From the NCBI RefSeq assembly GCF_032854445.1, contig NC_088297.1, positions 26,219,915-26,283,914 on the forward strand: a stretch of DNA of 64,000 bases, in the 5' to 3' direction. This document shows positions 8,829 through 56,097 of this stretch, in pieces; positions within the stretch are counted from its first letter, which is position 1, and each line of letters opens with the position of its first letter. Below the pieces are notes generated by a model. The model saw only the letters and a program-made list of their open reading frames with translations. It made no database searches and was not told the DNA's origin. Made by a program: the position numbers and the translations under genes. Source of the DNA: Liolophura sinensis (Eukaryota; Mollusca; Polyplacophora; Chitonida; Chitonidae).

Positions 8829-11800
8829 ATGGCGACGCGCTGGGGAATCTGTGGAGCCGGGAAAATCTGTGGCGATTTTGCGGGAGGATTGACGACGTTG
8901 CCTTCATCAGAGCATAAGGTGAGATAAAGCTTCTGAACTTTCTTTATGTCATCGTCACAGCATAAAGTGGGATCAGCCCTATGTACTCTATAAGTCATCG
9001 CAGGGCATAAGATGAGATCAACCTTCTACGCTTTACGTGTCATCTTCAGAGCATAAGATGAGATCAACCTTTGTGCTTTATATGTCACCGTCGGGGCATG
9101 ACGTCAGATCAGCCTTCTGTGCTTTATAAGCGATCATCAGAGCATGCGGTGAGATTAACCTTCCGTGCTTTATATGTCATCGTCAGAGCATAAGATGAGA
9201 TCAACCTTCTGGACTTTGTATGTCACCGTCAGAGCATAAGATGATGTCAAACTTGTGTACTTTATATGAGTGGCTTTTGAATGTTAAGTTCTGCTCACAA
9301 GGCACCGGTGTGGAATAGCCCCTATTGGACAGACGGTATGAACACAGCCGTGATATCATCGTTGCAATTTCAACTGAAGTTTAGCCATATCACAACAGTA
9401 CATCGTGATAGCACATCGTATATTGTTATGTCTTGTGGAGTAAGTTTCCTCTTGATTGGTCAATACACAGTCACATGATATTCCGCAAGAGAAACTTCAT
9501 GCTTACGATGTTATATCCGATGCAGTTGGCCATACAGTAGCTAACGATCAACGCCCTGACATTCAACGACCTCAGGGGATTTTCTACTACAGTTATTTCC
9601 CTTTGTGTACTCTATTACGTTTGCTTGCAAATAGCACCGGTATCGTAATATAAAACTGCATTTCTTCACCACACCAAATGGTTTGGTACTACAGTGCCTG
9701 TACACGTACATGTCCTTTGATTAGTTTTGATACATTTGTAAAATTTCTACACTGAAAGTGACCAAGTTTCGTATTTAGACTGAAGTCAAGCAATAGCGCC
9801 ATTAATACATCTATGAAACCAACAAATTCATCTGTTTGTCGACCAGTCAGAAGCTGGTGTTGATACATTTTTGTTCATATTTCATAGGCTGTTGCTGTGG
9901 CGGCACGAGACCTGTCTAGGGCTCAAGAATTTGCTAAAGAACGGGGAATTGCCACAGCTTATGGGTCCTACCTTGAACTTGCCCAAGATGCCAATGTAGG
10001 TTAGTATGTTACGATTCTGAAATATAAATTACAGTTCTTCGGAAATGTCCCGTCACAGGGGCATGTTATTTCCAGTTCTTCTGAATGTCCCGACAAAACG
10101 AAATGTAATTTCCAGTTTTCCTGAATGTCCCTTCACAACGGAATGTTATTGCCAGTTCTCCAGAATGTCCGTCACAAGGAAATGCTATTTCCAGTTCTCA
10201 GGAATGTCCCGTGACAAGGAAATGTTATTTTCCGATCTCGTGAATGTTCCGTCATAACCAAATGTTATTTCCAGTTCTCCAAAATGTCCCGTCAAAAGGG
10301 GATGTTATTTCCAGTTCTCCTGAATGCCCCGTCAAAACGAAATGTTATGTTCCGTTCTCCTGAATGTCCTGTCACAACGAAATGTTATTTCCAGTTTTCC
10401 TGAATGTCCCGTCACAAGGGAATGTTATGTTCCGTACTCCTGAATGTCCTGTCACAACGAAATGTTATTTCCAATTCTTCAGAATATCCCGTCACAAGGG
10501 ATGTTATCTCCAATTCTTCAGAATGCCCTGTCACACGGCAGTGGTATCCAGTTATCCTGAATGTCCCCTCAGAAGGGAATATTTTTTGCAGTTTTCCTGA
10601 ATGTCCTGTCACAACGAAATGTTATTTCCAATTTTTCAGAATGTCCTGTCACAAGAGAATGTTATTTCCAATTCTTCAGAATGTCCCGTCACAAGGGATG
10701 TTATTTCTAATTCTTCAGAATGCCCTGTCACACGGCAGTGGTATCCAGTTATCCTGAATGTCCCGTCAGAGGGGAATGTTTTTTTTGCAGTTCTCCTGAA
10801 TGTCCTGTCACAACGAAATGTTATTTCCAATTCTTCAGAATATCCCGTCGCAAGGGAATGTTATTTCCAATTCTTCAGTATATCCCGTCACAAGGGAATG
10901 TTATTTATAATTCTTCAGAATGCCCTGTCACATGGCAGTGGTATCCAGTTATCCTGAATGTCCCCTCAGAAGGAAATGTTATTTCCAATTTTTCAGAATA
11001 TCCCGTCACAAGGGAATGTTATTTCCAATTCTTCAGAATATCCCGTCACACGGCAGTGGTATCCAGTTGTCCTGAATGCCCCGTCAGAGGGGAATGTTTT
11101 TTTTCGCAGTTCTCCTGAATGTCCTGTCACAACGAAATGTTATTTCCAATTCTTCAGAATATCCCGTCACAACAAAATGTTGCTTCCAATTCTTCAGAAT
11201 ATCCTGTCACAAGGGAATGTTATTTCCAGTTCTCCTGAATGCCTCGTCAAAACGAAATGTTATGTTCCGTTCTCATGAATGTCCTGTCACAACGAAATGT
11301 TATTTCCAGTTTTCCAGAATGTCCCGTCACAAGGGAATGTTTTTTGCCGTTCTCCTGAATGTCCCGTCACAATGAAATGTTATTTCCAGTTCTTCTGAAT
11401 ATCACGTCACAAGGGAATGTTATTTTCCTTTCTCTTGATTGTCCCGTCACAAGGGAATGTTATTTCCAGTTCTCCTGAATGTCCCGTCTCTATGCAATGT
11501 TTTTTTGCCCTTTTCCTGAATGTCCCGTCACAAGGGAATGTTTTATGCAGTTCTCCTGAATGTCCCGTCACAAGGGAATGTTTTTTGCTGTTCTCCTTGA
11601 ATGTCCCGTCACAACGAAATGTTATTTCCAATTGTTCAGAATGTCCCGTCACAAGGGAATTTTATTTTCAATTTTTCAGAATGCCCGTCACAAGGAAATG
11701 GTGTCCAGTTCTCCCGAATGTCCCGTCACAAGGGAATGTTTTTTGCAGTTCTCCTGAATGTCCCGTCACAAGGGAATGTATTTTGCAGTTCTCCTGAATG

Positions 11801-14800: not shown

Positions 14801-17800
14801 CCCTTCACTAGGCAATGCTATTTCCAGTTTTCCTGAATGTCCCGTCACAAGGCAATGCTATTTCCAGTATTCCTGAATGTCCCGTCACAAAGGAATGTTT
14901 TTTGCAGTTCTCCTGAATATCCCGTCACAACGAAATGTTATTTCCAATTCTTCAGAATCTCCCGTCACAAGGGAATTTTATTTTCAATTCTTCATAATGC
15001 CCCGTCACAAGGGAATGGTATCCAGTTCTCCCGAATGTCCCGTTACAAGGGAATGTTATTTCCAGTTTTCCTGAATGTCCCGTCACAAGGCAATGGTATC
15101 CAATTCTCCTGAATGTCCCGTCACAAGGCAATGGTATCCAATTCTCCTGAATGTCCCGTAACAAGGCAATGTTATTTCCAGTTCTTCTGAATGTCCCGTA
15201 ACAAGGAAATGTTATTTCATCTAATACATTTAACGTCTAATACATTCACTGTGGTTGGTTAGGTTGGTTAACTAGGCCACGCTAAATTCGGTGAACAGTT
15301 CTGTTAAATAACATTACAAGAAATCGACAGATCCATTACAAATATTTAGATGTGATTAAATAGTGAAGTAATTCTCAGCTGATATAATTATTCGGGTGCT
15401 CTGGAGATCGGTGTATTTGTGTATATTGCGACCATTGATCTTGGCAGCCGTGAATTAATCTCTCTCGTCTTGCAGAGAATGTGTACATTGACACCACCAC
15501 AACAGATGTGGTGTACATTGACACCACCACAACAGATGTGGTGTACATTGACACCACCACAACAGATGTGGTGTACATTGACACCACCACAACAGATGTG
15601 GTGTACATTGACACCACCACAACAGATGTGGTGTACATTGACACCACCACAACAGATGTGGTGTACATTGACACCACAACAGATGAGGTGTACATTGACA
15701 CCACCACAACAGATGCGGTGTACATTGACACCACCACAACAGATGTGGTGTACATTGACACCACCACAACAGATGTGGTGTACATTGACACCACCACAAC
15801 AGATGTGGTGTACATTGACACCACCACAACAGATGCGGTGTACATTGACACCACCACAACAGATGTGGTGTATATTGGCACCATCTACCCCGAGCCCTGT
15901 AATCAGCTCTTCATTATCTTACAGATGTGGTGTATATTGGCACCATCCATCCAGAGCACCACAAACTCACTCTTCTATTCCTTAACCATGGTAAGCACGT
16001 GCTCGTTGAAAAACCGGCCGCCATGAACTTGAAACAGCTTAAGGAAATGACGTCATTGGCTAAGGAAAAGAAGCTCTTCTTTATGGAGGTAAGAAATGGC
16101 ATTCTCTGTTTCTTTTTTAATTTATAAATCCGTTTTTGTATATGTATAAAATGAATGTGTAAATAAATCATGATGTGCAGTAATCATTGTTTCCGGATAA
16201 ACAAACAAAGATATACTCTTTGTCCAGTGAAAATAAAATATCGTGCTCAAGCGTGCTCAAATAACATTGAATAGGACTGATCATCGAAGTAAGATTTGGA
16301 CTACAGTGAAACTGTATTCTTATTTTCGGTGTGACCTGTGTAGTATAATTCTGCCGGAAGTTTCTGGGAGTGTGAGTGTTTGTTTGATGTCATCCTCTGA
16401 TCACAGCGGCTTCATATACTTCACACTTTTACATGTTAAAATGCTGACTACACGCCCATACTAGCACGCACGTAAGTATTTCTTATGGGCCTTTGTACGA
16501 TGGAAATTCCTAAATAGTTCATTGAGTATCTTTAGCTCAGTTGCTTAAACATCGCTCTCCCTGGAATCACAAAATGAGATCACTTATCCGAATCCATTTG
16601 CAGCTGGTCTGGATATAGCTTTAAATAGGAGGTTCGTCCTGTATCTCCACACAGATGTTCGAACGTGTGTTAACAATTAAGGCCGGTATTAACTTTAGCC
16701 TGGGCTAACGTGCATTTGATTTATATATGGGAAAGACTGGCATTAACCCTTGTAATGCCTGATTATGGAACTAGATGTCAAAAAAAAAGTTATTTCATCA
16801 AATAACTAATGATCGTTGAAATAAACCAAAACACACATGTCGGTGAAAAGATATATATTTGGATATATATTACGAATGTATGATATATGATACACTTGGT
16901 ATTAGCTGGTGGGTTCCGTTTCAGAGTCTGTACCTTATATGATGCACAGAACACGTATCACAAACCAAACAGAACACGTATACATGAACAACCATGTTTA
17001 TATTACTGAAGTGTATAATTTATTATCAAGCAATAAAGCGCCGATTGGCGCCGATAAGTTATTAAACAGCAACAGAAAGTAACGTCTGCCACATTTCAGA
17101 TTTTGGCGTTTGTCTTCTGCAACTAACAAACAATCTGGTCTGGCTTGTGATAGTTTAAAAAGGAATTCCTGGTCTTTATAAGGTTTAAACCTGCTTTGAA
17201 TTTTAATACACTTTTGAACAACGGGCAACTGGTGGCTTTCTCTACCGGTGCCAATAAATCAGACTGTATTTTGGACCCAAAATCACAATCAAGCTACAGA
17301 TAATGACTGGATAAACAGCATCGAACACAAAGTCCCATGACATCAGTATTTACTACATGCACGTGAAACCCTCGTCGTTCAGTTCATCGATTTCCTCTCT
17401 TCAAGGCCGTATGGACCCGATTTTTCCCCATTTTCAAACGGGTTTTGGAGGAACTGGCTAAGCAGACTGTGGGAAAAGCCCGGATGTTGCGAGTGCAATT
17501 TGCCTTCCCTGCCTTCAGCATGGAGCGGATCTCCAACAAGGCTCTGGGAGGTGGAGCCTTGTTAGACCTTGGGGTCTACCCGCTTAACATTGCAGTCTTT
17601 TTGTTTGGGAAACCCGACAAGGTGACGATAGAGGGGACAATGATAGGAGGTGTGTATAATGCTTTGACGGGTTATAAAATGTGCTGTCCTCAGATTGAAC
17701 CTGACCGCTTCGGTGACCTAATGGATTGTCCCCCTCGATGTCGGGTGACCCGAGATTATACCGGGTTATACCAAAGACTTGGCGATCAGCAATGAGAGGT

Positions 17801-20800
17801 TAGAGCAAGGAAACAGGGCTGGTTGGCCCACTGTCAGTATAATGTGACTGGGTGGGGTGTCATGTCTGGTGTCTTCGGTAGAACTGTGGCGATATGGAGA
17901 TGTCACAAGAAAACAGTAAATGTACACACAACTAATGACTCCTCGTCATCATATGACTGAAAAATTAGAACGACATTAAACATCAAGAATTCGTTCATTC
18001 ATTCTTTCATTCATTCAAATTGAGCCACTGGATTAAATACGCTAGACTTGCTTCACAAGTCGGAATTATTTGGGAGTTATCTACAGGCCTACAGCCTTCG
18101 CTTTAAATCAGGGCGTTTGCCTGGTACCTTGTTCGTGTCAGATTTTTGAAGGTATTGTTTGGATATAGCTTTTTATGAACGTCATTTTAATTTTATGCGA
18201 CAAGATTATCTGTTAAGGACTGACATCCTGTATGCCTTGTGTAATATTGTGTTCCTATATTTTGTCAGATGTGGATGAAGCTGGTTGTATTATTTTTAAA
18301 TACAACGATGGTCGAATGGCTGAACTGAACTACAGCGCCGCTTATGAGGGTACAAATGACGTTGTTATATTCGGAACAAAAGGTCAGATAAAGGTACGTG
18401 CTGCTTATGAGGGTACAAATAACGTTGTTATATTCGGAACAAAAGGTCAGATAAAGGTACGTGCTGCTTATGAGGGCACAAATGACGTTGTTATATTCGG
18501 AACAAAAGGTCAGATAAAGAGGTATGTGCTGCTTATGAGGGCACAAATGACATTGTTATATTCGGAACAAAAGGTCAGATAAAGAGGTACGGGCTGCTTA
18601 TGAGGGCACAAATGACATTGTTATATTCGGAACAAAAGGTCAGATAAAGGTACGGGCTGCTTATGAGGGCACAAATGACGCTATTATATTCGGAACAAAA
18701 GGTCAGATAAAGGTACGTGCTGCTTATGAGGGCACAAATGACGTTGTTATATTCGGAACAAAAGGTCAGATAAAGGTACGTGCTGCTTATGAGGGCACAA
18801 ATGACGTTGTTATATTCGGAACAAAAGGTCAGATAAAGAGGTATGTGCTGTTTATGAGGGCACAAATGACATTGTTATATTCGGAACAAAAGGTCAGATA
18901 AAGAGGTACGTGCTGCTTATGAGGCACAAATGACATTGTTATATTCGGAACAAAAGGTCAGATAAAGGTACGTGCTGCTTATGAGGGCACAAATAACGGT
19001 GTTATATTCGGAACAAAAGGTCAGATAAAGGTACGTGCTGCTTATGAGGGCACAAATGACGTTATATTCGGAACAAAAGGTCAGATAAAGGTACGTGCTG
19101 CTTATGAGGGCACAAATGACGTTGTTATATTCGGAACAAAAGGTCAGATAAAGAGGTATGTGCTGCTTATGAGGGCACAAATGACATTGTTATATTCGGA
19201 ACAAAAGGTCAGATAAAGAGGTACGGGCTGCTTATGAGGGCACAAATGACGCTATTATATTCGGAACAAAAGGTCAGATAAAGGTACGGGCTGTTTATGA
19301 GGGCACAAATGACGTTGTTATATTCGGAACAAAAGGTCAGATAAAGGTACGTGCTGCTTATGAGGGCACAAATGACGTTGTTATATTCGGAACAAAAGGT
19401 CAGATAAAGAGGTATGTGCTGTTTATGAGGGCACAAATGACATTGTTATATTCGGAACAAAAGGTCAGATAAAGGTACGGGCTGCTTATGAGGGCACAAA
19501 TGACATTGTTATATTCGGAACAAAAGGTCAGATAAAGGTACGTGCTGCTTATGAGGGCACAAATGACGTTGTTATATTCGGAACAAAAGGTCAGATAAAG
19601 GTACGTGCTGCTTATGAGGGTACAAATGACGTCATATTCGGAACAAAAGGTCAGATAAAGGTACGTGCTGCTTATGAGGGCACAAATCACACTATTATAT
19701 ACGGAACAAAATGCCAGGTAATGGTAGCTGATGAGGTGGAGGCACACATAACGTTGCTATATTCGGAGAAAAATGTCGCATGAAATGTAGGTTGTTATAT
19801 TCCAGCAGATATGCCACATAATGGTATGTGTAATAAACCCGGATTGTTTCAGTTACACGCATTTATCTGATCCAAATGTTTTGTAATTCCTGATGGCGAA
19901 TCTCTGTAGCCTTTGTGGTCACCTAAATCTTAGAGATAATCACAGGTTAGGGTGGGGTCAACCGGATGTGTGCCATATGTATGTTGGCAATAATGTGAAA
20001 TGCGAGCTGAGACATCTTTGACAAGATTTGTACTTAATGTACTTTAAAGCATTCAGGAACATATATAGTGTGGCGGATTACTCTGAAATTCTGTCCACAT
20101 GTTGCCGATCACAGTGTATATAAACGGTAATATGCTTTCTGGTAAACTGCTTTTCTTTCTCTATGTAAACAAGCTATAAAACTGAAATTTAACAGTAAAT
20201 GTGATCAAAGAAAAAATATTGTGTTCATTGTTCGGAAAAGCTTTGACAGAAACAAACAAAAAAAAAAACGCGAAGCTAAGATTATCCAAAGTTATTGAAT
20301 AATTTACCGATTACCTTGACTATAACCAAGGATGCCGTATTTTGCAGTGGCCTATTCTGTGCACGGCAGTGTTGTCAATTGAAGTGATAATCTGTACCTG
20401 ACCGCCAGATGTCGCTCTTTTCTGCCCACAGATAAATAGCCCCATGTGGTGTCCCACAGAAATGACCTTGCCATCCGAAACAGTGACCATTGACCTACCG
20501 AAAACAGACGCCAAGTTTCACTACAGGAACAGTGCAGGTCTGTCATACGAAGCGGATCACGTCAGGCAGTGTATTCTCAAAGGTAAATGTCACAGGAAAA
20601 TGTATCAGAAGTACTACTTCTTTGTTGGATAACATAGTGCACCTGACACCTGACACCTGACACGTGTAACAGAATTCCGTGGGATAGAGATAGATTAGAT
20701 AGAGGTCAAGCGTCTCATCCACCTGACACGTGTAACAGAATTCTGTGCTGTGGAGATAGATTAGATAGAGGTCAAGCGTCTCATCCACCTGACACGTGTA

Positions 20801-30054: not shown

Positions 30055-30156
30055 ATGGCGACGCGCTGGGGAATCTGCAGTGCAGGGAAGATCTGTGGAG
30101 ATAGGCGCGATAGATCTGTGGAGCTAGGCGCGATAATAGCGATACAATCACTATAG
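30055..30156 (+). pseudogene. Broken exon 1 of copy 2
   Basis: Codons for [16 protein letters not shown] are kept. The sequence then changes to two copies of ATCTGTGGAG(A/C)TAGGCGCGATA about 22 bases apart, with a TAG at 30154-30156. The exon 1 end seen in copies 1 and 3 (CAGAGCATAAG or GAGCATCAG plus GT) is missing. The event looks like loss of the exon end with a small tandem duplication. Confidence 0.8.
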
Positions 30157-30624: not shown

Positions 30625-30675
30625 AGAGCAAGGAAACAGGACAGACTGGCCCGTGTCAGTATAATGTGAGTAGCA
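30625..30675 (+). repeat. Dispersed repeat family B, truncated copy
   Basis: AGAGCAAGGAAACAGGAC and GTCAGTATAATGTGA match the copy at 17790-17895. Confidence 0.45.
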
Positions 30676-31991: not shown

Positions 31992-32178
31992 AGGTGTGTA
32001 TATCGGCACAACTCAGTCAGATCACTGCTAAATAGCTGCTATTTATCTTACAGATATGGTGTATATAGGCACCATCCATCCAGAACAGTGTTAATCAGCT
32101 CTTCATTATCTTACAGATGTGGTGTATATTGGCACCATCCAACCAGGCACTGTTAATCAGCTCTTCATTATCTTACAG
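31992..32178 (+). repeat. Exon 3 acceptor-edge units in copy 2 (2-3 decoys)
   Basis: Decoy exon 3 starts at 32054 and 32117, spaced 63 and 62 bases from the next, each preceded by CTTCATTATCTTACAG or similar. A more decayed one follows CCTTACAG near 31995. The 32117 unit carries the variant CAACCAGGCACTG that also marks the last decoy of copy 3. Confidence 0.9.
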
Positions 32179-33681
32179 ATGTGGTGTATATTGGGACCAT
32201 CCATCCAGAACACCACAAACTCACTCTTCTATTCCTTAACCATGGTAAGCACGTGCTCGTTGAAAAACCGGCCGCCATGAATCTGAAACAGCTTAAGGAA
32301 ATGACGTCACTGGCTAAGGAAAAGAAGCTCTTCTTTATGGAGGTAAGGAATGCGATTCCAGTATAAACAAAAAACAGTATTTGTCCTCTGCAAGTCAGTC
32401 CCATCCTGTAGACTTATAGCGGGATAACATGTGATGACGGCTATTTTTTTTCAGTGTAATGTTCCTTGAAAATCCCTTGTGTTCCACCAATATGGTGTGA
32501 ATATCTCCACATCACTCGTGCTTAAGCTCCTCAGTTAATTGCCAAAGGTCGATGGTTTATCCCGGGGATATCTGGCTTCCTCCACCCATAAAACTGATAG
32601 TTACCAATGAAGTAAATGAAGAAATCAATCTTCCAGGCCGTGTGGACTCGATTTTTCCCAGCTTTCACACGCGTGCTGAAGGAGATGGCAAATCAGTCTG
32701 TGGGAAAAACCCGAATGTTACGTGCACAGCTTGGATTCTCATCCACGTGGGTGAGGGAGCTCGGGAGCGATGGTTTCATGCATGGGTGCTTGCTACCTTT
32801 GGGCGGGTACTTGCTTAACGTTGCAGTCTTCCTGTTTGGGAGGCCTGACAAGATGATCGTAGAAGGTACCATGGCAGGAGGTGGGTATCGCTGTGTGATA
32901 GAGCAATGACAGGTGCACGTCCATATGTACAGATGGATGCACAGGGATAGTGTGTGCATAAAAAAGTTAAAATAAAGCCCTAGCTAAGATATTTTGACAA
33001 AGGACCGATTATAGATGTGACCATTTTCCATCCATCACACTATCGTCGATGCTCTGGTTTTACTCTCTATGCTGCAGTCTTCTATTTTGCTATACGTAGT
33101 GAGAATTAAGAGTTTAGTCTATTTTGAAAAGGAAATAATTATTATTAGCATCTTTTTCAGTCGTTAAGGATTGTCAGATACCTGCTGAAGGGCGATGGTT
33201 TATTTTCGACAATCCAGACTTTGCAGCAGTCTATGAAAATAAACATTTGAGAAACACTGAGTAGATGTCATTTTTATTTAATGCAAGACTTGAAGTTTGT
33301 AAAAGACTGACTCCCCAAATCTCTTCTGTTGTTCAGTGTGTTTAATATCTTTTCCTTTTCGTGTCAGATGTGGATGAAGCTGGTTGTATTATATTCAAAT
33401 ATAAGGATGGTCGAATGGCTCAGTTGAGCTTCAGCTCCGCCTTTATGGGTGCAAATGATCTTAATATATTCGGAACAAAAGGTCAAATAAAGGTAAGTTC
33501 CGTTTATGAGATCGAAATGACGTTGTTATAATCGGAACTAAAGGTCAGCCAAAGGAAGGTAACGGGATAGGGCCACACGCGCTCCAATCCAGTCCGTAAA
33601 CCTGATATATACCATATACCAGCTAAAGGATGATAATCAGTAGGGGCACAATGCCATTGTTATATTCGGAACAAAAGGTCA

Positions 33682-33842
33682 TATGTGCTATCTGAGCCCA
33701 TAAGACATCGCTGGTGTCCACCCGCCATTTTTCTCTACGATATATATCCCCTTATAGATTATAAACAATAGGGACAAATTTCTAGTCAAAGCAAGATGGC
33801 GCGTGGACACCAGAGATGTCTTATGGGCTCGGATAGCACATA
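33682..33842. mobile_element. MITE-like inverted-repeat element in intron 5 of copy 2
   Basis: The two ends are inverted copies of about 48 bases: left TATGTGCTATCTGAGCCCAT..., right complement TATGTGCTATCCGAGCCCAT..., differing at only a few positions. The centre is about 65 bp without coding capacity. This is the structure of a short non-autonomous DNA transposon. It sits among remnants of the exon 5 donor array. I cannot assign a superfamily; a TA target duplication is possible. Confidence 0.75.
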
Positions 33843-34075
33843 CAATTGCCACTGGGACAAAATGCAATTGATTTGGGTATACTAAGGGTGGATTCAAGCA
33901 GATAATAGCTCCGGCTAGGGAAACGAGTGGAAAAGTTGGAGGTTGATGGCTTTCTTTCTTGAATTTCAGAGACATTGTGTGGTGCCGGTGGAAAGTCGCT
34001 TCATACCTTTACATCTTACATATCTATGAAGTTGGGAAACGGCATATATAGGATTTGCAGACTGGATTCGAGTGC

Positions 34076-34945
34076 CAGTGTTTGGGGGCACATATGATAG
34101 GGTTACATTAAGAACGAAAGGCTGGGTAAAGGTAGGTGACGAGTGGAGGGTACAAATAATGTTCACATTGCTGCATTCGGAACGAAAGGATAGGTAAAGG
34201 TAGGTGACGAGTTGAGGATACAAATGACGTTCAAATTGCTATATTCAGAGCGAAAGACTAGGTAAGTAGGTGACGAGGTAGGGACACTATTGACGATATT
34301 ATTTTATCGTGACGAGTTTAAGGCACAAATGCGTTGTTATATTGGGAACAAAATGTCAGATAATGGTAGGTGACGAGTTGAGGGCACAAATGGCATATTG
34401 GGAACAAAATGTCAGATAATGGTAGGTGACGAGTTGAGGGCACAAATGGTGTTGTTATATTGGGAACAAAATGTCATAGTGGTAGGTGACGAGAGTTAAG
34501 GGCACAAATGGTATATTGGGAACAAAATGTCAGATAATGGTAGGTGACGAGTTGAGGGCACAAATGGTATATTGGGAACAAAATGTCAGATAATGGTAGG
34601 TGACGAGTTGAGGGCACAAATGGCGTTGTTATATTGGGAACAAAATGTCATAGTGGTAAGTGACGAGTTAAGGGCACAAATGGCATATTGGGAACAAAAT
34701 GTCAGATAATGGTAGGTGACGAGTTGAGGGCACAAATGGCGTTGTTGTATTGGGAACAAAATGTCAGATAATGGTAGGTGACGAGTTGAGGGCACAAATG
34801 GCATTGTTATATTCGGACCAAAAGGTAGGTGACGAGTTGGAGAACAAATGACGTCGTTGCATTCGGGACAAAAGGTAGGTGACGAGTTGGAGCACAGATG
34901 ACTTCGTTACATGTGTAACAAGAGATCTGATAAATGTGAGTGGCA
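34076..34945 (+). repeat. Decayed exon 5 donor-edge array in copy 2, about 14 units
   Basis: Units of 48-75 bp contain GGTAGGTGACGAGTTGAGGG, then GCACAAATGGCGTTGTTATA and GGGAACAAAATGTCAGATAA, clearly related to the end of exon 5 (ACAAATGA..TATTCGGAACAAAAGGTCA). Most units read AATGGTAGGT rather than AAAGGTAAGT. A lone decayed unit lies directly behind exon 5 (33493-33560). Alternating long and short units (with or without CGTTGTTAT) show a two-unit higher-order period. Confidence 0.85.
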
Positions 34946-36134: not shown

Positions 36135-36290
36135 TCACACAGCGAATACGTGATGGGATTGATGGACCGGGCTAAGGAGGAGATCCGGTTGCGATGTGGC
36201 GTCCACGAATGATCACACAGCGAATACGTGATGGGATTGATGGACCAGGCTAAGGAGGAGATCCGGCTGCGATATGGCGTCCACAAATCA
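36135..36290 (+). repeat. 78-bp tandem duplication of the end of exon 7 in copy 2
   Basis: TCACACAGCGAATACGTGAT and the following bases to the stop codon (36135-36212) are repeated at 36213-36290 with few differences. The first copy ends in TGA; in the second the stop position reads TCA and the frame runs on. The second copy therefore lies in the 3' UTR unless the first stop is bypassed. Confidence 0.9.
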
Positions 36291-42052: not shown

Positions 42053-42445
42053 TTTGCACCATAGCCTTCTATCAAATTCGCGTCTCCTCGGTCACATGGC
42101 TTTGTGCCTGTCAGAACTGACAAGCCAGTTCGTCAAAACATAGTGACGTAATGAAAGGTCAACCACGGATGCGCATGGGCGGGCAGCTATAACACGGTTT
42201 AGTAGGTCAGAATGTCGACATGGCATGTCAGCGTAAATCACAGCTATGAATTATCATAGATTTACTGGTCGTAAAGGCTACAGAATGTGGGAAAACTTGG
42301 CAGAAGAAAACAGGATGACTCGGTGAACATTGGAGATTTGCCCTGTTAATGCATGTTTTGGTACATGTTGCACGGATTTTTTGTTGCACGTAGTTCCTCC
42401 GCGCTAGGCTGTTCTTACATACCACTGTTTTAACCTGGATGACTC

Positions 42446-45004: not shown

Positions 45005-48000
45005 ATGGCCACAAGATGGGGAATCTGTGGGGCGGGGAAAATCAGCAGCGATTTCACCAACAGCCTGACGTCACAGCCAACTACGGAGCATCAGGTACGC
45101 ATGCGTGGCTGCAAAGGCGATTGCATACGCCATTTGTCATGGAAACAACCTGAAATAAACGTACATGAACATTTTTAAGTTTTCAGGACTCGTATGTAGA
45201 AATTTGAGCGGCGTTGAGTCATTTTCATATGGTATTTTGTAAGATAAAGCATATTGCGAAAGGTAGACATATCAGCAATGCGGAATATAGTATATGTGTG
45301 GTATTTAGATTAGTGAGGCGGAATGTAGTATATGTGTGGTATTAGGATTACTTTGGCGGAATGTAGTATATGTGTGGTATTTAGATTACTGAGGCGGAAT
45401 ATAGTATATGTGTGGTATTTAGATTACTGAGGCGGAATGTAGTATATGTGTGGTATTAGGATTACTGAGGCGGAATGTAGTATATATGTGGTATTAGGAT
45501 TACTGAGGCGGAATGTAGTATATGTGTGGTATTAGGATTACTTTGGCGGAATGTAGTATATGTGTGGTATTAGGATCACTGAGGCGGAATGTAGTATATG
45601 TGTGGTATTTAGATTACTTTGGCGGAATGTAGTATATGTGTGGTATTTAGATTACTGAGGCGGAATGTAGTATATGTGTGGTATTTAGATTACTGAAGCG
45701 GAATGTAGTATATGTGTGGTATTAGGATTACTGAGGCGGAATGTAGTATATGTGTGGTATTAGGATTACTGAGGCGGAATGTAGTATATGTGTGGTATTA
45801 GGATTACTGAGGCGGAATGTAGTATATGTGTGGTATTAGGATTACTTTGGCGGAATGTAGTATATGTGTGGTATTAGGATTACTGAGGCGGAATGTAGTA
45901 TATGTGTGGTATTTAGATTACTTTGGCGGAATGTAGTATATGTGTGGTATTTAGATTAGTGAGGCGGAATGTAGTATATGTGTGGTATTTAGATTACTGA
46001 AGCGGAATGTAGTATATGTGTGGTATTTAGATTACTGAAGCGGAATGTAGTATATGTGTGGTATTTAGATTAGTGAGGCGGAATGTAGTATATGTGTGGT
46101 ATTAGGATTACTTTGGCGGAATGTAGTATATGTGTGGTATTTAGATTACTGAGGCGGAATGTAGTATATGTGTGGTATTAGGATTACTTTGGCGGAATGT
46201 AGTATATGTGTGGTGTTTAGATTACTGAAGCGGAATGTAGTATATGTGTGGTATTGAGATTACTGAGGCGGAATGTAGTATATGTGTGGTATTAGGATTA
46301 CTGAGGCGGAATGTAGTATATGTGTGGTATTAGGATTACTTTGGCGGAATGTAGTATATGTGTGGTGTTTAGATTACTGAAGCGGAATGTAGTATATGTG
46401 TGGTATTGAGATTACTGAGGCGGAATGTAGTATATGTGTGGTATTTAGATTACTGAGGCGGAATGTAGTATATGTGTGGTATTTAGATTACTTTGGCGGA
46501 ATGTAGTATATGTGTGGTATTTAGATTACTGAGGCGGAATGTAGTATATGTGTGGTATTTAGATTAGTGAGGCGGAATGTAGTATATGTGTGGTATTAGG
46601 ATTACTGAGGCGGAATATAGTATATGTGTGGTATTAGGATTACTTTGGCGGAATGTAGTATATGTGTGGTATTTAGATTACTGAGGCGGAATATAGTATA
46701 TGTGTGGTATTTAGATTACTGAAGCGGAATGTAGTATATGTGTGGTATTTAGATTAGTGAGGCGGTATGTAGTATATGTGTGGTATTAGGATTACTTTGG
46801 CGGAATGTAGTATATGTGTGGTATTTAGATTAGTGAGGCGGAATGTAGTATATGTGTGGTATTTAGGCTTCTGATTGGAACAGTAAGAACGAGCACATGT
46901 CGTGGAGAAATAGTTTAGTCAGAACTATCCTGGAGCCGATACTACAAAGATATCTGTGACCTTAGTCAAAACTTAAACGTTGTCACAAATGTTTAGTTCA
47001 GTAATGCAACAAGAAATTTTCACACGTTTGTGTTACATATATCATTGATGAAGTGATCAAAATTATATTTTACAAGTGTAAAGTAATATTTCAAATTTTT
47101 GACCGAAGTCAAAACTGGCTTTGTGGAATCGATTCCAGTTTCTGAAGATTACTGGGTTTGTCACATAGTGTCGAAAAATGACGATAATCCAGAGGACAAA
47201 GAAACCAACTTGATCCAGTGATGTTTTTTTGGGATTACAGGTGGTGGCTGTGGCAGCCCGGAAGTTAGACAGAGCCCAGGAATTTGCCTCGGATCACAAC
47301 ATTTCGCAAGCCTACGGTTCTTATGAGGAAATGGCAAAAGACCAAAATGTTGGTTAGTACCAGTCACAAACCAGTCTACAGTGAACTGCTTTCTGGTTTC
47401 CCCCCCAATAATTCAACAACCACATACTGGATAGTAATACTAGTAACGCATGAACTTACGTGAGAATGCCCTTCAGCCACCTCCGGATGATCTTACGTAA
47501 GAATGCCCTTCAGCCACCTCCGGATGATCTTACGTAAGAATGCCCTTCAGCCACCTCCGGATGATCTTACGTGAGAATGCCCTTCAGCCACCTCCGGATG
47601 ATCTTACGTGAGAATGCCCTTCAGCCACCTCCGGATGATCTTACGTGAGAATGCCCTTCAGCCACCTCCGGATGATCTTGCGTTTTCCCGGTTTCCTCCC
47701 ACCTCACTGCTGGCCCCAGTGGTATAAGTGGAATTTTCTTGAGTAAGGCGTAAAAAACACCAACAAAATAAATAAATAAAGTGCGGTTTATTTCAGCTAG
47801 ATAGCTCTTCTGTAAGCACTAGCCTACTCATCCGGAACACTGTTACTCAGCTATTCATTATTTTACAAATGTGGTGTATATCGGCACCGTAGCGCAACGT
47901 AATAACCCAGGAGCCTCTCACCAATGCAGTTGCTGTGAGTTCAAGTCCATATATATATAGGCACCATCCATCCAGAGCAGTGTTTATCAGCTCTTCATTA

Positions 48001-51000
48001 TCTTACAGATGTGGTGTATATTGGCACCATCCATCCAGAGCAGTGTTAATCCGCTCTTCGTTATCTTACAGATATGGTGTATATTGGCACCATCCATCCA
48101 GAGCAGTGTTAATCAGCTCTTCATTATCTTACAGATGTGGTGTATATTGGCACCATCCATCCAGAGCAGTGTTTATCAGCTCTTCATTATCTTACAGATG
48201 TGGTGTATATTGGCACCATCCATCCAGAGCAGTGTTAATCAGCTCTTCATTATCTTACAGATGTGGTGTATATTGGCACCATCCATCCAGAGCAGTGTTA
48301 ATCAGCTCTTCATTATCTTACAGATGTGGTGTACATTGGCACCATCCATCCAGAGCAGTGTTAATCAGCTCTTCATTATCTTACAGATGTGGTGCATATT
48401 GGCACCATCCAACCAGGCACTGTTAATCAGCTCTTCATTATCTTACAGATTGGTGTATATTGGCACCATCCATCCAGAACACCACAAACTCACTCTGCTA
48501 TTCCTTAACCATGGTAAGCACGTGCTCGTTGAAAAACCGGCCGCCATGAATCTGAAACAGCTCAAGGAAATGACGTCACTGGCTAAGGAAAAGAAGCTCT
48601 TCTTTATGGAGGTGAGAAAGATATAATATAAAATGAAATCAGGTCCACTTTACTTCAAAACTATAAGTAATGAACAGGAAAATGTGACAGCATTCATGAG
48701 TGTAGGGAAAGTTCTTTCCCATTTTCTTTGCTCATCGGATATTCATCTTAATTGAATATATTGTGTCTGTCTGGAAAGATTAAATCATAGAAACGGTAAG
48801 AAATCTCAAGGCTAATAAAGGTATAATCGATAATACTATTTTGACTGGAATTTTAGCTTCAGATAGACTAAAATTTGATTTCTTGGTCCGCAGGAGTGTG
48901 TGTTCGAACCCACATTCCGCGTGGTGAGCTGCGTGCTTAGGCAGGAAGTTTGTCAGGTACCTGGCGCAGGGCAACTCTTTATGTATGAGTCTACAACAAA
49001 CAAACCCGACTATCGTCTTATAAGTGAAATATTCTTGAGTGTATCAATTAAAATAAGTAAATTCTCTAAGGACATGTACTTTAGTCTGTGTTCACTTTAC
49101 GCAGGCGGTGTGGAGCCGATATTTTCCGCTGTACGAGAGATTGGTACAAGAGCTAGCCTCAGGAACGATCGGAAAGCTCAAGCTGCTCAGTATCCAATTC
49201 GCGCTCCCTCTCTGGGATGTGCCCAGGATACGGGATAAGGCCCTGGGAGGAGGGGCTCTGCTGGATATCGGCGTTTACCCTCTCAACATCGCAGTCTTCC
49301 TGTTCGGCATACCAGACAAGATCCTCACGGAGGGCACCATGATGGATTCAGGTAGTCCTCAGCGCGGAATAAAGTATTCTATTCCTATCAAAAGCGCTTG
49401 ATCTGAAAAGTTCGTGGCATGGGAGGGCGGGGGTGGGGGTGGGTGTGTGGGGTGTTTGTTGGGGGTGCGGCCGTGGCCTACTGGCTGGTGTGCCAGAGTG
49501 GCGTAATGATCCAGGAGCATCTCATGAATGTGATCGGTGTGAACTCAAGTCTAGCTCATGCTGGATTCCCTCTCCTGTCTTATGTGGGAAGGTCTTTCAG
49601 CAATCTGCGGATTGTCGTGGGTTTCCTCTGTGATGTGTTTGAGTTCTGCCCACCATTATATCGACCACCGTTGCAGAGGTGAAATATTCTTAAGAATAAC
49701 GTAAAACACCAGTCAGATAAATACATCGTAAAAAGTTAATCCTGTTTCCAATTGACACTCCTCTTTCCATGTCCTGGTCTTGTCCTGGATAGTAGTTGTA
49801 TACAGGACATCTAATCAAGTAATCACTTAATGCCTGTACAATAGTGCCATTTTCATGCACCTTTCAGCCAGTTTTCATGACACATACTAAAGTCTTGTTA
49901 CATTTTAAACCAGGATTCTACTGTTGGACTAAGCACTATTGAGACCCGGTCCCTCTGTATTATTTTCACGTGATTACACAACATTTTGAGTAATTTTAGA
50001 CCGTTCACGTCAAATACATTTTGACCATTTTTCAAACTGTTGTATTGATCTCGCTGGTCTGGGTTTCTCTCGGCGCTCTAATTGTTTATATGGTAGATGT
50101 GTTGAAGATCGTATAAACAATTTACATCAGTTTTGTTGGTTTCCTTCGGGGAATTAGTCTCCAAGTTATTGTCGATTGAAGATATAATATGGAGTTGCTT
50201 AAAGTGAGACGTCCTAACTCTCACAGCGGATTTTCATGAAGCGTAACAGATTTGTTGTCACATGTGACCTTTTAATTGTCATGTGTGACCACCTAACTCT
50301 CACAGCGGATTTTCGGGAAGATTGACAGATTTGTTGTCATGTATATGACCACCTAACTCTCACAGCGGATTTTCGGGAAGATTGACAGATTTGTTGTCAT
50401 GTATATGACCACCTAACTCTCACAGCGGATTTTCGGGAAGATTGACAGATTTGTTGTCATGCATATGACCACCTAACTCTTACCGCGCATTTCCATGAAG
50501 CTTGACAGATTTGTTGTCACATGTGACCTTTTAATTGTCATGTGTGACCACCTAACTCTCACAGCGGATTTTCGGGAAGATTGACAGATTTGTTGTCATG
50601 TATATGACCACCTAACTCTCACAGCGGATTTTCATGAAGCTTGACAGATTTGTTGTCATGTATATGACCACCTAACCCTCACAGGTGATTTTCATGAAGA
50701 TTGACAGATTTGTTGTCATGTATATGGCCACCTAACTCTCACAGGTGATTTTCATGAAGATTGACAGATTTGTTGTCATGTATATGACCTCTTAACTCTT
50801 ACAGCTGATCTTCATGAAGCTTGTCAGATTTGTTGTCATGTATATGACCTCGTAACTCTCACGGTAGGTTTTCGTGTAGCTTGTCAGGTTTGTTGACAAC
50901 GATATGTAGACGTGCACTTCGGTTCCATTCTGCTTTTCCTCCAAGTTATCGCCGCCCGGAGATTCTGTTGGACACTAAAGAGTATTTATGATTAGTTGAA

Positions 51001-54000
51001 CCATTGGTCTGTCGCTTTGTCTGCAGGTGTGGACGTAGAGGTAAAGAGTGTTTTCTGTTGGACAGTAAAGACTCTTTATGACTAGTGGAACCATTGGCCT
51101 GTCGTCTTGCCGGCAGGTGTGGACGATGGAGTAAACAGTGTTTTCTGTTGGACAGTAACTTGATGGCTGTAACGATTAGTTGAACCATTGGCCTGTCGTC
51201 TTGACGGCAGGTGTGGACGATGGAGTAAACAGTGTTTTCTGTTGGACAGTAACTTGATGGCTGTAATGATTAGTTGAACCATTGGCCTGTCGTCTTGACC
51301 GCAAGTGTAGACTTGTCCGCAGGTGTGGACGAAGGAGGAAACATAGTTTTCTGTTGGACAGTAACATGATGCTGTGATGACTAGTTGAACCATTGGCCGG
51401 CCTGTCGTCTTGACCGCAAGTGTAGACTTGTCCGCAGGTGTGGACGAAGGAGGAAACATAGTTTTCTGTTGGACAGTAACATGATGCTGTAATGACTAGT
51501 TGAACCATTGGCCGGCCTGTCGTCTTGACCGCAAGTGTAGACTTGTCCGCAGGTGTGGACGAAGGAGGAAACATAGTTTTCTGTTGGACAGTAACATGAT
51601 GCTGTAATGACTAGTTGAACCATTGGCCGGCCTGTCGTCTTGACCGCAAGTGTAGACTTGTCCGCAGGTGTGGACGAAGGAGTAAACATTGTTTTCTGTT
51701 GGACATTAACATGATACTGTAATGACTAGTTGAACCATTGGCCTGTGGACGATGGAGTAAACATAGTTTTCTGTTGAACAGTAAAGGCTCTTTATGACAA
51801 GCGTGAATCATTGGCCTGTCGTCTTGCCCGCAGGTGTAGACTTGTCCGCAGGTGTGGGCGAAGGAGTAAACAGTGTTTTCTGTTGGACAGTAAAGGCTCT
51901 TTATAACTAGTTGAACCATTGGCCTGTCTTCTTGCCGGCAGGTGTGGACGATGGAGTAAACAGTGTTTTCTGTTGGACAGTAACATGATACTGTAATGAC
52001 TAGTTGAACCATTGGCCGGCCTGTCGTCTTGACCGCAAGTGTAGACTTGTCCGCAGGTGTGGACGAAGGAGGAAACATAGTTTTCTGTTGGACAGTAACA
52101 TGATGCTGTAATGACTAGTTGAACCATTGGCCGGCCTGTCGTCTTGACCGCAAGTGTAGACTTGTCCGCAGGTGTGGACGAAGGAGTAAACATAGTTTTT
52201 TTGTTGGACAGTAAAGGCTCTATATGACTAGTTAAACCATTGGCCTGTGGACGATGGAGTAAACAGCGTTTTCTGTTGGACAGTAAAGACTCTTTATGAC
52301 TAGTTAAACCATTGATCTGTCGCCTGCAGATGTGGACGAAGGAGTAAACAGCGTTTTCTGTTGGACAGTAAAGGTTCTTCATGACTAGTTGAACCATTGG
52401 TCTGTCGCCTGCAGATGTGGACGAAGGAGTAAACAGCGTTTTCTGTTGGACAGTAAAGGTTCTTCATGACTAGTTGAACCATTCTGTTGGACAGTAACTT
52501 GATGGCTGTTTAACCATTGGTCTGTCGTCTTGCTTGCAGGTGTGGACGAAGCAGTCTGTGTCATTTTCAAGTACAACGATGGTCGAATGGCTCAGCTCAA
52601 CTGTAGTGTGGCTTATAAAGGTGTCAACGAGGTGGTGATTTTCGGAACAAAAGGACAGATTAAGGTAAACCAATGTTAAAGGAAGATGTTTTATTTATTT
52701 GATTTATTGGTGTTTTACACTTTACTTAAGACTAAGTCACTTATACGGCGGCGACAAGCATCTTGGCGGGGGATAGAACCCACGACCGTCCGCAAGCTAC
52801 TGACAGATCTTCCCACGTACGGCTGGACTTGATATCACAATGACTGCATTGGTGAGTTGGTCTGCGTTGCCACGCTAAGCACTCGGACAGGGATGCCCTT
52901 GTAATGAAAGATATGCATAAAATCTAGATACGACAAGGTTTTCTTACAGCTCTGTTTTTGTTAAAACGTAAGGATCGAAAAAGATATTCATCGTCAGCCG
53001 TAATGTACGTCCCAGGTCAGCAATCGCCAGATCAATTTCCTGACCAGTGGTCAACAAAGAATCAAGAGAGGATATGAAGTAATAAATTAATATGAATTCA
53101 TGCAAATAGAGGTAGTGAACAGTTTTCAGCGATGATAGAAAGACGCAAGGAATGTTCTATGCGAATGAATCATCAATTTATGTGATTGCTGTTTTACGTC
53201 GTGCTCAAGGGAATGAATAAAAACAGTTTCCAAATTGTATACCTTTGCTAGCTTAAAGCTGTGGTTAATCCAAGTATGTGTATCAGTTGCACCTTGATGG
53301 CAGCTTTTCCTATATGCCATTAGACACCTGAACGGATTGTTTATAACACGTGGTGACGTATGTGATGACGTAGTTATTGACGCATATGATAACGTAGCTC
53401 TGATGCAAAGAAGGTTGATTTCTTTTTGCCCTTGTACTAGGTTCACGAGCCGATGTGGTGTCCTACGGAAATGACATTGCCTTCCGGAAAAGTGACCTTT
53501 GAACTGCCAAAAACCAGTGCCAAATTCAATTTCCATAACAGCGCGGGAATGGTTTACGAAGCAGTTCACGTCAGGAAGTGTATCAAAGAAGGTAAATTTG
53601 TATAAGACAGAAACACTCTGGGCCAAGATTAAACTTGTGAGTTCGAATCCTCCCCACATCAATGAGATTGTTACCCTTACCCATTATGTAGTATTGGATT
53701 GCATGGGCAGTTAAGTGATCTCAGGATCTCAAAGCTGCTTTACACTTAAGTCAAACTCACATGCACTCTTAACTTCCAAACAGGTCACTGCTCTAAAATA
53801 GTTACTTGCTTCTGGAATTTTTGTGCTAATGAGTTAGAGTTGTTTAGAGAGTTCCTGACAAAATAGAAAATTAGGACTTAAAGCGACATGATCGCCCAAA
53901 TATCAGGTGTTTTTGTGCTAATGAGTTAGAGTTGTTTAGAGAGTTCCATGACAAAATAGAAAATTAGGACTTAAAACGACATGATCGCCCAAATATCAGG

Positions 54001-56097
54001 TGTTTTTGTGCTAATGAGTTAGAGTTGTTTAGAGAGTTCCATGACAAAATAGAAAATTAGGACTTAAAGCGACATGATCGCCCAAATATCAGGTGTTTTT
54101 GTGCTAATGAGTTAGAGTTGTTTAGAGAGTTCCATGACAAAATAGAAAATTAGGACTTAAAACGACATGATCGCCCAAATATCAGGTGTTTTTGTGCTAA
54201 TGAGTTAGAGTTGTTTAGAGTCCCTGACAAAATAGAAAATTAGGACTTAAACGACATGATCGCCCAAATATCAGGTGTTTTTGTGCTAATGAGTTAGAGT
54301 TGTTTAGAGAGTTCCATGACAAAATAGAAAATTAGGACTTGAAACGACATGATCGCTCAAATGTCAGGTATTTTTGTGCTAATGAGTTAGAGTTGTTTAG
54401 AGAGTTCCATGACAAAATAGAAAATTAGGACTTGAAACGACATGATCGCTCAAATGTCAGGTATTTTTGTGCTAATGAGTTAGAGTTGTTTAGAGAGTTC
54501 CATGACAAAATAGAAAATTAGGACTTGAAACGACCTAGTCGCCCAAATGTCAGGTATTTTTACGTCATTACAGAATGAGTATCGGGGATTTTTCTCAAGA
54601 AGTAAAAGTTACAAGGTTTTCGTTAATCCCATTTCCAGCATTATACGTAAAGTGAATGTTTAAAAATAATAAAAATCTGAAAAGTCTGCCAGAATATTTA
54701 TATGGGGCGCCATGAATTCAGTTGAAATTGATCATGCGCACAGTGCTCGGTAAACTTCATATGTAAACTAACATGAATGAATCAACGCCTAAAAGAAGGA
54801 CTTACGGGTTGCTCGTGACAGGATCGGTCAAAAACAGGCGTAAAAAAGAGCTCGACAGGCTGACAAGCAAGTGTAGAGTTGTAATTGATGGTCAGTTTGA
54901 ACAGTGGAGTACTTTGAAGAAAGAAAAGGGTCTTACCAAGAACGAAGATGTCGCTTAGTTAGTGCCAGTTGAACTTGCCACTTACCTGCAGCTTATTTCG
55001 TGGACAACCGCGGTCAGCCTTAAAACTCTATTATAAGTAGCATTTTTAGCCAAGCTTCCTCTTTTTATTGCATGCCAGTTCTAATACAGTACATGTATGT
55101 ATATCTTCGGTATAATACTTAGATGGAGCAATGTGGATTGAGTAGGAAAGACGTACCTCGCTTGACATGTTTTTTTTTTTTGCCTGAACTTTCCGAACGC
55201 TGCGCATATGCTTTGGGCCCTTCCGGTTGACGATTAATGAGGCAAAATGGCACCCCTCTTTGTGTGCTGAATTTATGAACGAACTTTAAAACATCGTTAA
55301 GACGTTGCAATCAGAATTTGTTTTAAAATCTAAATTTTTGGCGACCAAAATCGAAAATAAGTTCAGGAATTATACCTAAATCTTATAGACTAAATCTTAC
55401 TTAAGTCTAAGACAGCCTCATGATCCTTTGGGCCAGATCAACCATTGAGTTATAAACTGATATACAGATCCCCAAATCCCCTTTGCTTACACTAAGGGCG
55501 GGGCTTGTGTGACAGTAAGTGGCTAACGACTGTGGCCTTTGGGGCATTTTGCATTCGTTGAAGACTCGAGTTTGTGCCACCTATAAAACTGACGGCCACT
55601 GTAAAGTGGAAAAATCCTAAATATGACGTTAAGCAGCGTTCAAATAAATATGTCAACAAAAGACTGATGTCACACGATATCTGGCTCAACCAGTCAATTA
55701 TTTAGTATTCTTAAGTCAACCAGTCAATTTTAGTGACAGTATAATAATTAAGTCTTTTTTTCTTGATTTAATAGCAAGATCTTAGCAGTATATAATTAGA
55801 GGATAATATATGTGTATGACAGTGTCAATCATTCTACTTTATTTTAGTTTAGAGGTCAATATTTGAATGTATCACATGACACATGACTGGCCACCGTTGT
55901 AGGAGTGAAATATTCTTTCAGTACGACGTAAAATATCAATCAACTAAATAAAATAAATGAAGTAATCAGGTGTTATATCTGATTTTTCAGGAAAGTTGGA
56001 AAGTCCGTATGTGTCTATGGACCATAGCGAGTACGTCATGGGGTTAGTGGATCAGATTAAGAAAGATATTGGTCTCCGGTACGACGTGGACGATTGA
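45005..56097 (+). CDS. DHDH: Dihydrodiol dehydrogenase (trans-1,2-dihydrobenzene-1,2-diol dehydrogenase-like), copy 3
   Basis: Seven exons: 45005-45094, 47241-47352, 48449-48611, 49105-49351, 52540-52664, 53441-53591 and 55991-56097 (TGA). Intron phases match copy 1. Exon 4 is one codon longer (TMMDS for TMIG). His79, Lys97 (VEKP) and Tyr180 ([11 protein letters not shown]) are present, and the N terminus [18 protein letters not shown] is the closest of the three to the vertebrate enzyme. The total is 995 nt, one base short of a multiple of three. The loss is at the 5' edge of exon 3, where ATTGG replaces ATGTGG, and none of the seven upstream decoy acceptors restores frame. This may be a true lesion, a sequencing or assembly error next to a repeat, or an allele. 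Four introns carry tandem arrays, two of them made from exon 3 and exon 5 acceptor edges. Outside exon 3 it is clearly more diverged from copies 1 and 2 than they are from each other. Confidence 0.85.
45270..46864 (+). repeat. 38-bp minisatellite in intron 1 of copy 3, about 42 units
   Basis: Units contain GGCGGAATGTAGTATATGTG followed by TGGTATTTAGATTACTGA or TGGTATTAGGATTACTTT. The few unit types are arranged in recurring order, suggesting block duplication. No exon-derived sequence is visible. Confidence 0.95.
47450..47790 (+). mobile_element. SINE 3' part with an internal 37/38-bp tandem expansion
   Basis: CCTTCAGCCACCTCCGGATG with CTTACGTGAGAATG is repeated six times (47450-47680) and runs into an otherwise normal SINE end: CCCGGTTTCCTCCCACCTCA, GTATAAGTGGAATTTTCTTG, AAGGCGTAAAAAACACC and AATAAATAAA. 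The repeated part corresponds to the SINE segment (CTTATGTGGGAAGGTCTTTCAGCAATCTGCGGAT-like) seen in 49461-49728. A VNTR has thus grown inside a SINE. Confidence 0.8.
47869..48448 (+). repeat. 63-bp exon 3 acceptor-edge array in copy 3 (7 decoy acceptors)
   Basis: Decoy exon 3 starts follow CTTCATTATCTTACAG at 48009, 48072, 48135, 48198, 48261, 48324 and 48387, each 63 bases apart; the real exon starts 62 bases after the last. Each unit is about 35 bases of exon 3 (ATGTGGTGTATATTGGCACC...) plus 28 bases of intron with pyrimidine tract and AG. Use of any of the first six decoys would read [13 protein letters not shown] and stop. Confidence 0.95.
47889..47948 (+). mobile_element. SINE head fragment inside the exon 3-edge array
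   Basis: GTAGCGCAACGTAATAACCC ... GCAGTTGCTGTGAGTTCAAGTCC is the tRNA-like head of the SINE family. It interrupts an exon 3-edge unit (ATGTGGTGTATATCGGCACC before, TAGGCACCATCCATCC after). Confidence 0.7.
48890..49062 (+). mobile_element. Possible SINE of a second type in intron 3 of copy 3
   Basis: A box B-like GTGTTCGAACCCACATTC is followed by GGCAGGAAGTTTGTCAGGTA and a tail (TCTTATAAGTGAAATATTCT, TTGAGTGTATCAATTAAAAT) like that of the main SINE. The head differs from the main family, so it may be another tRNA-derived family sharing the tail. Confidence 0.45.
49461..49728 (+). mobile_element. tRNA-headed SINE in intron 4 of copy 3, plus orientation
   Basis: The head is GCGGCCGTGGCCTACTGGCT and GTGTGAACTCAAGTCTAGC. 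The body is CTCATGCTGGATTCCCTCTC and TTTCAGCAATCTGCGGATTG, and the tail GTGAAATATTCTTAAGAATA and ACGTAAAACACCAGTCAGAT. Confidence 0.75.
50213..50900 (+). repeat. ~58-bp minisatellite in intron 4 of copy 3, about 11 units
   Basis: Units contain CTAACTCTCACAGCGGATTT and GACAGATTTGTTGTCATGTA. Two units instead carry CACATGTGACCTTTTAATTG, spaced so as to imply a block duplication. Distal units are more decayed. Confidence 0.9.
50955..52539 (+). repeat. Exon 5 acceptor-edge array in copy 3, about 15 units of 85-118 bp
   Basis: Each unit has a pyrimidine-rich CTGTCGTCTTG, then GCAGGTGTGGACGA(T/A)GGAG and AAACA..GTTTTCTGTTGGACAGTAA. This copies the real acceptor and first bases of exon 5 (CTTGCAGGTGTGGACGAAGC). 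Some units have an internal extra piece (GCAAGTGTAGACTTGTCCGC), giving the longer periods. Reading into a typical decoy gives [15 protein letters not shown] and a stop. Long minus-strand frames over the array (up to 201 codons) are repeat by-products. Confidence 0.92.
52690..52905 (-). mobile_element. tRNA-headed SINE in intron 5 of copy 3, minus orientation
   Basis: From the plus strand: tail TTTATTTGATTTATTGGTGT and TTTACACTTTACTTAAGAC, body CGGCGGCGACAAGCATCTTG and CCGTCCGCAAGCTACTGACA, then a decayed inverted head (GACTGCATTGGTGAG ... GCACTCGGACAGGGATGCCC). Confidence 0.75.
52990..53310 (+). repeat. Dispersed repeat family C, second copy
   Basis: Aligns in order with 38425-38705 and is interrupted by a short inverted SINE tail (TGCTGTTTTACGTCGTGCTC, 53182-53205). 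An antisense frame of 178 codons (53126-53662) crosses this repeat and exon 6 and is not a gene. Confidence 0.45.
53817..54556 (+). repeat. 92-bp minisatellite in intron 6 of copy 3, 8 units
   Basis: Units contain GTGCTAATGAGTTAGAGTTG and AATTAGGACTTAAAACGACA. They are nearly identical, with two sub-types (GACTTAAA and GACTTGAAA) clustered 5' and 3'. Confidence 0.95.
54773..54958 (+). pseudogene. Small reading frame with an FExWxxLKxxKGL motif, gene or transposon fragment
   Basis: The 61-codon frame reads [20 protein letters not shown], a basic stretch RRKKELDRL, then [25 protein letters not shown] and a stop. The pattern FExWxxLKxxxGLxxxxxVA is one I recall from N-terminal segments of unannotated, partly zinc-finger-containing invertebrate proteins that occur in many copies. 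The frame stops where that motif usually continues (…FLL), so this is probably a truncated or intron-interrupted copy inside intron 6 of copy 3. No function is assigned. Confidence 0.3.
55500..55650 (+). mobile_element. Possible degenerate SINE, plus orientation
   Basis: ACTGACGGCCACTGTAAAGT, AAAATCCTAAATATGACGTT and AAGC..AATAAAT resemble the SINE 3' end (GACGGC..GTATAAGTG..ATTCTTGAGTACGGCGT). The upstream part is weak. Confidence 0.35.
55890..55957 (+). mobile_element. SINE tail fragment
   Basis: CTGGCCACCGTTGTAGGAGT, GAAATATTCTTTCAGTACGA and CGTAAAATATCAATCAACTA match the SINE 3' end. It lies 33 bases before exon 7 of copy 3. Confidence 0.6.

Follow-up and report, generated by a model that had tools for sequence, protein, structure and literature searches.

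We analysed a 64,000-nucleotide stretch of DNA (hereafter, the window) from Liolophura sinensis, a chiton (Mollusca), and found three DHDH paralogues, designated A, B and C. The joined exons of gene A gave an open 330-residue protein, which matched the Pfam GFO_IDH_MocA domains, and a piece of gene C matched dimeric dihydrodiol dehydrogenase (2o48) in the PDB. The seven-exon layout and the intron positions were identical in A, B and C. The genes and the exons referred to below are as follows.

8829-21135, + strand: DHDH gene A
8829..8918, + strand: A exon 1
15925..16088, + strand: A exon 3
18269..18393, + strand: A exon 5; its last 54 nt, with 9 intron nt, form the repeat unit of the adjoining array
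30055-36213, + strand: DHDH gene B
30055..30102, + strand: B exon 1, first half only
32179..32342, + strand: B exon 3
45005-56097, + strand: DHDH gene C
45005..45094, + strand: C exon 1
48449..48611, + strand: C exon 3, 1 base shorter than exon 3 of A and B
52540..52664, + strand: C exon 5

Among the 120 matches listed, of 4519, no protein was identical to gene A. A protein from L. sinensis in the database, the DHDH-like P0002, corresponded to gene C: the two were identical over 48135-48611, and its other exons were near-identical to those of the gene. Exons 2-7 of gene B were open, with AG/GT borders, and a frameshift considered for its exon 4 was rejected on that reading; the second half of exon 1 was absent. 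Beside this lost half, the remainder of B exon 1 carried a 23-bp duplication (30089-30135). At the other end of the gene, a 78-bp tandem duplication (36134-36288) gave two copies of the end of exon 7 with its stop codon.

Border arrays in the three genes

TRF, self-BLAST and direct reading identified seven arrays in which the repeated unit consisted of exon-terminal bases together with the adjoining splice site. An earlier note on this DNA had reported at least six such arrays in the three paralogues, and each case that it named was present with the period that it gave.

8907..9268, + strand: A exon 1 donor array; 46-bp units of ~12 exon nt (TCAGAGCATAAG) plus intron
15481..15924, + strand: A exon 3 acceptor array; 30-bp units (15481-15883), then a single 62-bp unit ahead of the real exon
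18340..19726, + strand: A exon 5 donor array; 63-bp units of 54 exon and 9 intron nt, ~22 copies
32043..32213, + strand: B exon 3 acceptor array; 62-bp units
33493..34937, + strand: B exon 5 donor array; a diverged copy and remnants by the exon (33493-33684), 56-68-bp units at 34083-34937
47954..48478, + strand: C exon 3 acceptor array; 63-bp units, with a decayed copy near 47858
50988..52483, + strand: C exon 5 acceptor array; 85-115-bp units with ~16 exon nt

The 63-bp unit at exon 3 contained ~34 exon nt. The B exon 5 units were diverged, most of them lying 0.6 kb downstream from the exon. An ungapped 30-mer border test missed the exon 3 arrays of A and C because their units differ by small indels; fuzzy matching was used in the window instead.

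Arrays were abundant in general: those with a period of at least 10 accounted for 32% of the window, rising to 47% within the gene bodies. The following gene-body arrays touched no exon.

10032-15218, + strand: A intron 2 array; 40-bp unit, 131 copies, starting 33 bp past exon 2 and showing no exon letters
20654-20961
45280-46866
47450-47683
50213-50895
53818-54561

Shared descent and gene conversion at exon 3

All three genes had the exon 3 acceptor unit in common, and A and B also shared the exon 5 donor unit, with 72-75% identity between their arrays over ~600 bp. Since array copies are related between paralogues, the seven arrays go back to about four origins. The recurrence of arrays in the cluster had been taken as repeated seeding, but most of it reflects shared descent and gene conversion instead.

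Exon 3 was 97.0% identical between A and B, 96.3% between A and C, and 98.2% between B and C, versus 51-88% for the other exons. Third positions of exon 3 differed at 3/55 sites (AB), 4/55 (AC) and 3/55 (BC), compared with 55/165, 95/164 and 104/164, respectively, in exons 2, 5, 6 and 7 (Fisher P = 1.5e-5, 5.7e-12 and 2.5e-15). The homology ended ~10 nt past the donor and reached upstream into the array. Thus, a tract of high silent-site identity lies between diverged exons, the pattern of interlocus gene conversion.

Strong selection alone was considered as the cause of the exon 3 identity and was rejected. The identity extends to silent sites, and a fourth DHDH paralogue, located 10 Mb away (L005), differed from A exon 3 at 24/164 sites, including 16/55 third positions (Fisher P = 0.0055 versus 4/55); selection on exon 3 therefore does not explain the identity. 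The exon 3 of this fourth paralogue had no border array. These results indicated that exon 3 has been homogenised between A, B and C by gene conversion, with a tract that includes the array. The array may in turn have promoted the conversion.

Border arrays across a genome sample

We then turned to exons of the same genome that matched the myosin head (PF00063), P450 (PF00067) and CCT (PF00118) domains, taken with their flanks. The sample comprised 121 exons, that is, 242 borders (121 donors and 121 acceptors), in 58 segments covering 242 kb. At each border the splice site with the highest score in the vicinity of the match was chosen, and copies of the spanning 18-mer (10 nt on the exon or 8 on the intron side) were counted within 1.5 kb, allowing at most 3 mismatches; a border with at least 2 copies was scored as a border array. 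A candidate splice site was present at 240 of the 242 borders, and the other two were scored as misses. Stretches were chosen by exon density, except for two 10-kb stretches (L067 and L068) that were chosen for arrays already seen there, so the sample was not wholly blind; the exons added by these two alone (C11:2676744 and C12:678432) had no border array. Two exon matches at or beyond a locus end were left out, and two weak, second-ranked sites (the C2:5379301 donor and the C2:5638655 acceptor) were not counted. At C8:53405971 a rung lying 63 nt beyond the core ranked highest among the donors, and the site at -3, which scored equally, was taken as the real one. Arrays near exons in L016, L021, L026 (3' side), L030, L062 and L063 were dropped, as no exon letters were seen in their units.

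Border arrays were found at 10 of the 242 borders, 8/121 donors and 2/121 acceptors; hence both kinds of border are duplicated in the sample, as in the window.

Myosin donors: C12:686729, C12:684214, C11:2675303, C8:10565028, C1:26644459
CCT5 donor: C1:72038329, named by protein P0122
Donors in loci that we take to be CCT3: C8:53405971, C8:53407400
Myosin acceptors: C2:5378501, C1:67512493

Their units were 31-109 bp long, with spacing up to ~140 bp. By family, the counts were 7/104 for myosin, 3/58 for CCT and 0/80 for P450 (P450 versus the remaining families, Fisher P = 0.033).

Whether these numbers exceed chance depends on how array positions are counted. By raw present-day coverage, 4.1% of borders lay in arrays versus 10.2% of intron positions, and 24.7 borders were expected. 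Borders are rarer in arrays than intron positions per present-day base; therefore, an excess exists only under a collapsed-seed null. In this null each position was weighted by 1/copy number, because each border marks one point, whereas an array within an intron adds to the number of its own positions. The collapsed fraction was 1.15%, which gave 2.8 expected borders against the 10 observed (P = 0.0006). Donors accounted for the excess (1.4 expected, 8 observed, P = 0.00009), and acceptors were at background (1.4 expected, 2 observed, P = 0.41). A segment-specific null gave 4.0 expected versus 10 overall (P = 0.006) and 2.0 versus 8 for donors (P = 0.00065). Under a stricter TRF-overlap rule, 7 borders (5 donors and 2 acceptors) remained against 2.57 expected (Poisson P = 0.016), and shuffled flanks yielded 0/1200 border arrays.

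A selected exon copy could make border arrays recognisable for twice as long, and when a two-fold detection bias was assumed, the excess was not significant overall (P = 0.28) and marginal for donors (P = 0.051). The 8:2 ratio of donors to acceptors was not itself significant (P = 0.11), and the focus on donors was post hoc. The data thus lend moderate support to an excess of border arrays at 5' splice sites in the chiton sample. The proposal that borders seed tandem duplication is partly supported: border arrays in unrelated genes of the same genome exceeded uniform seeding (10/242 versus 2.8-4.0), with the excess at donors and with acceptors at background. This comparison is a small version, with 121 exons of three families, of the one that the earlier note had asked for; it gave an excess under the collapsed nulls, but no significant overall excess once the two-fold bias was allowed for.

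An alternative is that some initial duplications straddle borders simply at the rate usual for introns, with gene duplication and conversion multiplying the cases in the cluster. The density of arrays in this genome (32% of the window; 10.2% raw intron coverage by 18-mers in the sample) is in its favour, as are the reduction of seven cluster cases to about four origins, the first 60 loci alone (2 observed versus 0.90 expected, P = 0.23) and the doubled expectation. The collapsed and segment-specific nulls speak against it, most strongly at donors, and so does the array density itself, whose collapsed fraction stayed at 0.010-0.017 across intron bins with no clear rise toward donors. We give chance plus inheritance a lower, though appreciable, probability.

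Fate and origin of the ladders

Copies in the arrays form ladders of potential splice sites, which the earlier note described as decoys. In 14 arrays the splice dinucleotide was kept in 114/130 copies (88%), and other dinucleotides were kept in 1506/1820 (83%). Retention varied: the C11 myosin ladder kept the dinucleotide in 10/18 copies, and the A exon 1 ladder kept GT in 2/6 further copies and lost it in 4/6. Decoy ladders therefore exist, but not every rung is live. Retention showed no sign of selection, neither of purging nor of special keeping.

Protein models differed in how they treat the ladders. In the CCT5 protein P0122 (540 aa), the exon tail joins the next segment directly (...SKAADK-ISTLEQ...), as in the limpet Lottia, with no ladder residues, indicating that the 109-bp ladder past the CCT5 exon is left out of the protein model. 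The unit of this ladder (L071 1-531; G000:C1:72037900-72038430) was nearly all exon, with ~96 exon nt and 13 intron nt. P0002 read through the C exon 3 acceptor ladder: its start is an ATG within the array (48135), from which ~105 array-coded residues lead into exon 3, and it lacks exons 1-2. This argues against ladders being always skipped. For the same gene, none of the 8 acceptor rungs tried connected exons 2 and 3 in an open frame. In a donor ladder the exon-proximal donor still comes first, whereas in an acceptor ladder the competing AGs lie upstream of the exon; donor ladders may be better tolerated than acceptor ladders for that reason.

The ladders might instead be functional, for example by offering U1 multiple binding sites where the intron begins or by providing graded in-frame inserts. 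The mostly intact dinucleotides would fit such a role, and the first two rungs of the A exon 5 array are in frame, adding 21 residues each. However, splice dinucleotides were not clearly better preserved than other dinucleotides, several ladders (A exon 1, C11 myosin) are mostly dead, some periods (for example, 46, 31 and 109) do not preserve the frame, and the fourth DHDH paralogue does without an exon 3 array. A function of the ladders is thus very improbable.

The earlier note knew of no named class of such arrays, but one has been named: 'mirage' minisatellites are known in amphioxus from Adh3, troponin C, the globins BflGb6/BflGb9 and PGBD5, of which TnC and PGBD5 were added by PMC3902484. 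In mirages and in the chiton arrays (seven in the window, 10/242 sampled borders), the tandem unit spans an exon-intron boundary. Mirage units are ~10-160 bp long, and the chiton units were 30-115 bp in the window and 31-109 bp elsewhere. Both 5' and 3' boundaries are duplicated in both animals, and many but not all mirage repeats keep AG/GT, as did 114/130 chiton copies. All the reported mirages that we found are cephalochordate, whereas the chiton is a mollusc; we did not regard taxon as defining the class. The chiton differs further in having several ladders in one cluster, the coupling with exon 3 conversion, and a measured donor excess. Our literature search, which covered open-licence papers, found no splice-border arrays in molluscs.

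Three other systems are comparable. The human CBS 31-bp VNTR, c.1444_1467+7(16_21) (PMC2630376), comprises by its numbering the last 24 exon nt plus 7 intron nt and is thus a donor-spanning array; it is described there as a single locus, polymorphic in people, with neither a cluster nor demonstrated gene conversion of the array, unlike in the chiton. Human segmental-duplication genes contain internal tandem repeats, some at exon-intron boundaries, and like the chiton arrays these are minisatellite expansions in recent paralogues, but that account focuses on repeats that change the mRNA and not on arrays around each border (PMC2812944). In the Rogers model (as cited in PMC3087553), introns are created by tandem duplication of AG/GT segments, which likewise copies splice signals. 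The chiton arrays duplicate an existing border, and no new intron position was seen in A, B or C. The arrays might be intermediates of such intron gain, a model already proposed for mirages; given the shared seven-exon layout of A, B and C, we find this hard to credit.

Assembly artefact is the least probable explanation: HiFi depth is only 14x and arrays are difficult to assemble, but the mean HiFi read of 8,347 bp, as given in PMC11068029, exceeds each border array (at most ~1.5 kb), units diverge inside arrays, and many loci are affected.

The arrays are therefore probably mirage-type minisatellites, seeded at borders somewhat above uniform expectation, with conversion accompanying the exon 3 array. 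A local tandem duplication would straddle a splice border. The copy adjoining the exon body would keep the whole border, so that the extra copies could be removed with the intron and would be tolerated. The array could then grow, shrink and drift, presumably by unequal exchange or slippage. In the minisatellite-rich chiton genome, exon borders, and 5' splice sites in particular, may have received the first duplication somewhat more often than expected under uniform seeding, as our small sample suggests. Within the DHDH cluster, the conversion that made exon 3 nearly identical in three diverged paralogues went along with the long array that they share next to this exon; silent sites show the conversion itself, and we infer the array's part as its promoter. 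A stronger version, with 5' splice sites as hot spots of minisatellite birth in chitons and arrays as homology tracks that drive conversion of neighbouring exons, is a tentative proposal that we hold with some doubt.

The arrangement itself was known; the present analysis adds its occurrence in a mollusc, an excess at donors and a link to gene conversion. Splice-border minisatellites, previously described in a handful of amphioxus genes and as a single human VNTR, thus extend to a mollusc, both in a cluster of paralogues and in housekeeping genes (CCT3, CCT5 and myosins). Should arrays indeed be seeded at 5' splice sites, the place where minisatellites arise would be predictable, which would bear on how exons evolve, on gene conversion and on gene annotation. 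The array-coded residues of P0002, a public chiton protein model, are an example of the last.

Rfam and tRNA scans gave zero matches, and Pfam gave none for three other ORFs. On the minus strand, 41642-42091 held an open stretch of 150 residues, with abundant Cys, Arg and Lys and without a Pfam match. Two large adjoining arrays, at 57730-60473 and 60927-63283, had the same 44-bp period but different units (~63 and ~54 copies, respectively), and the first of them contained long open frames on the minus strand.
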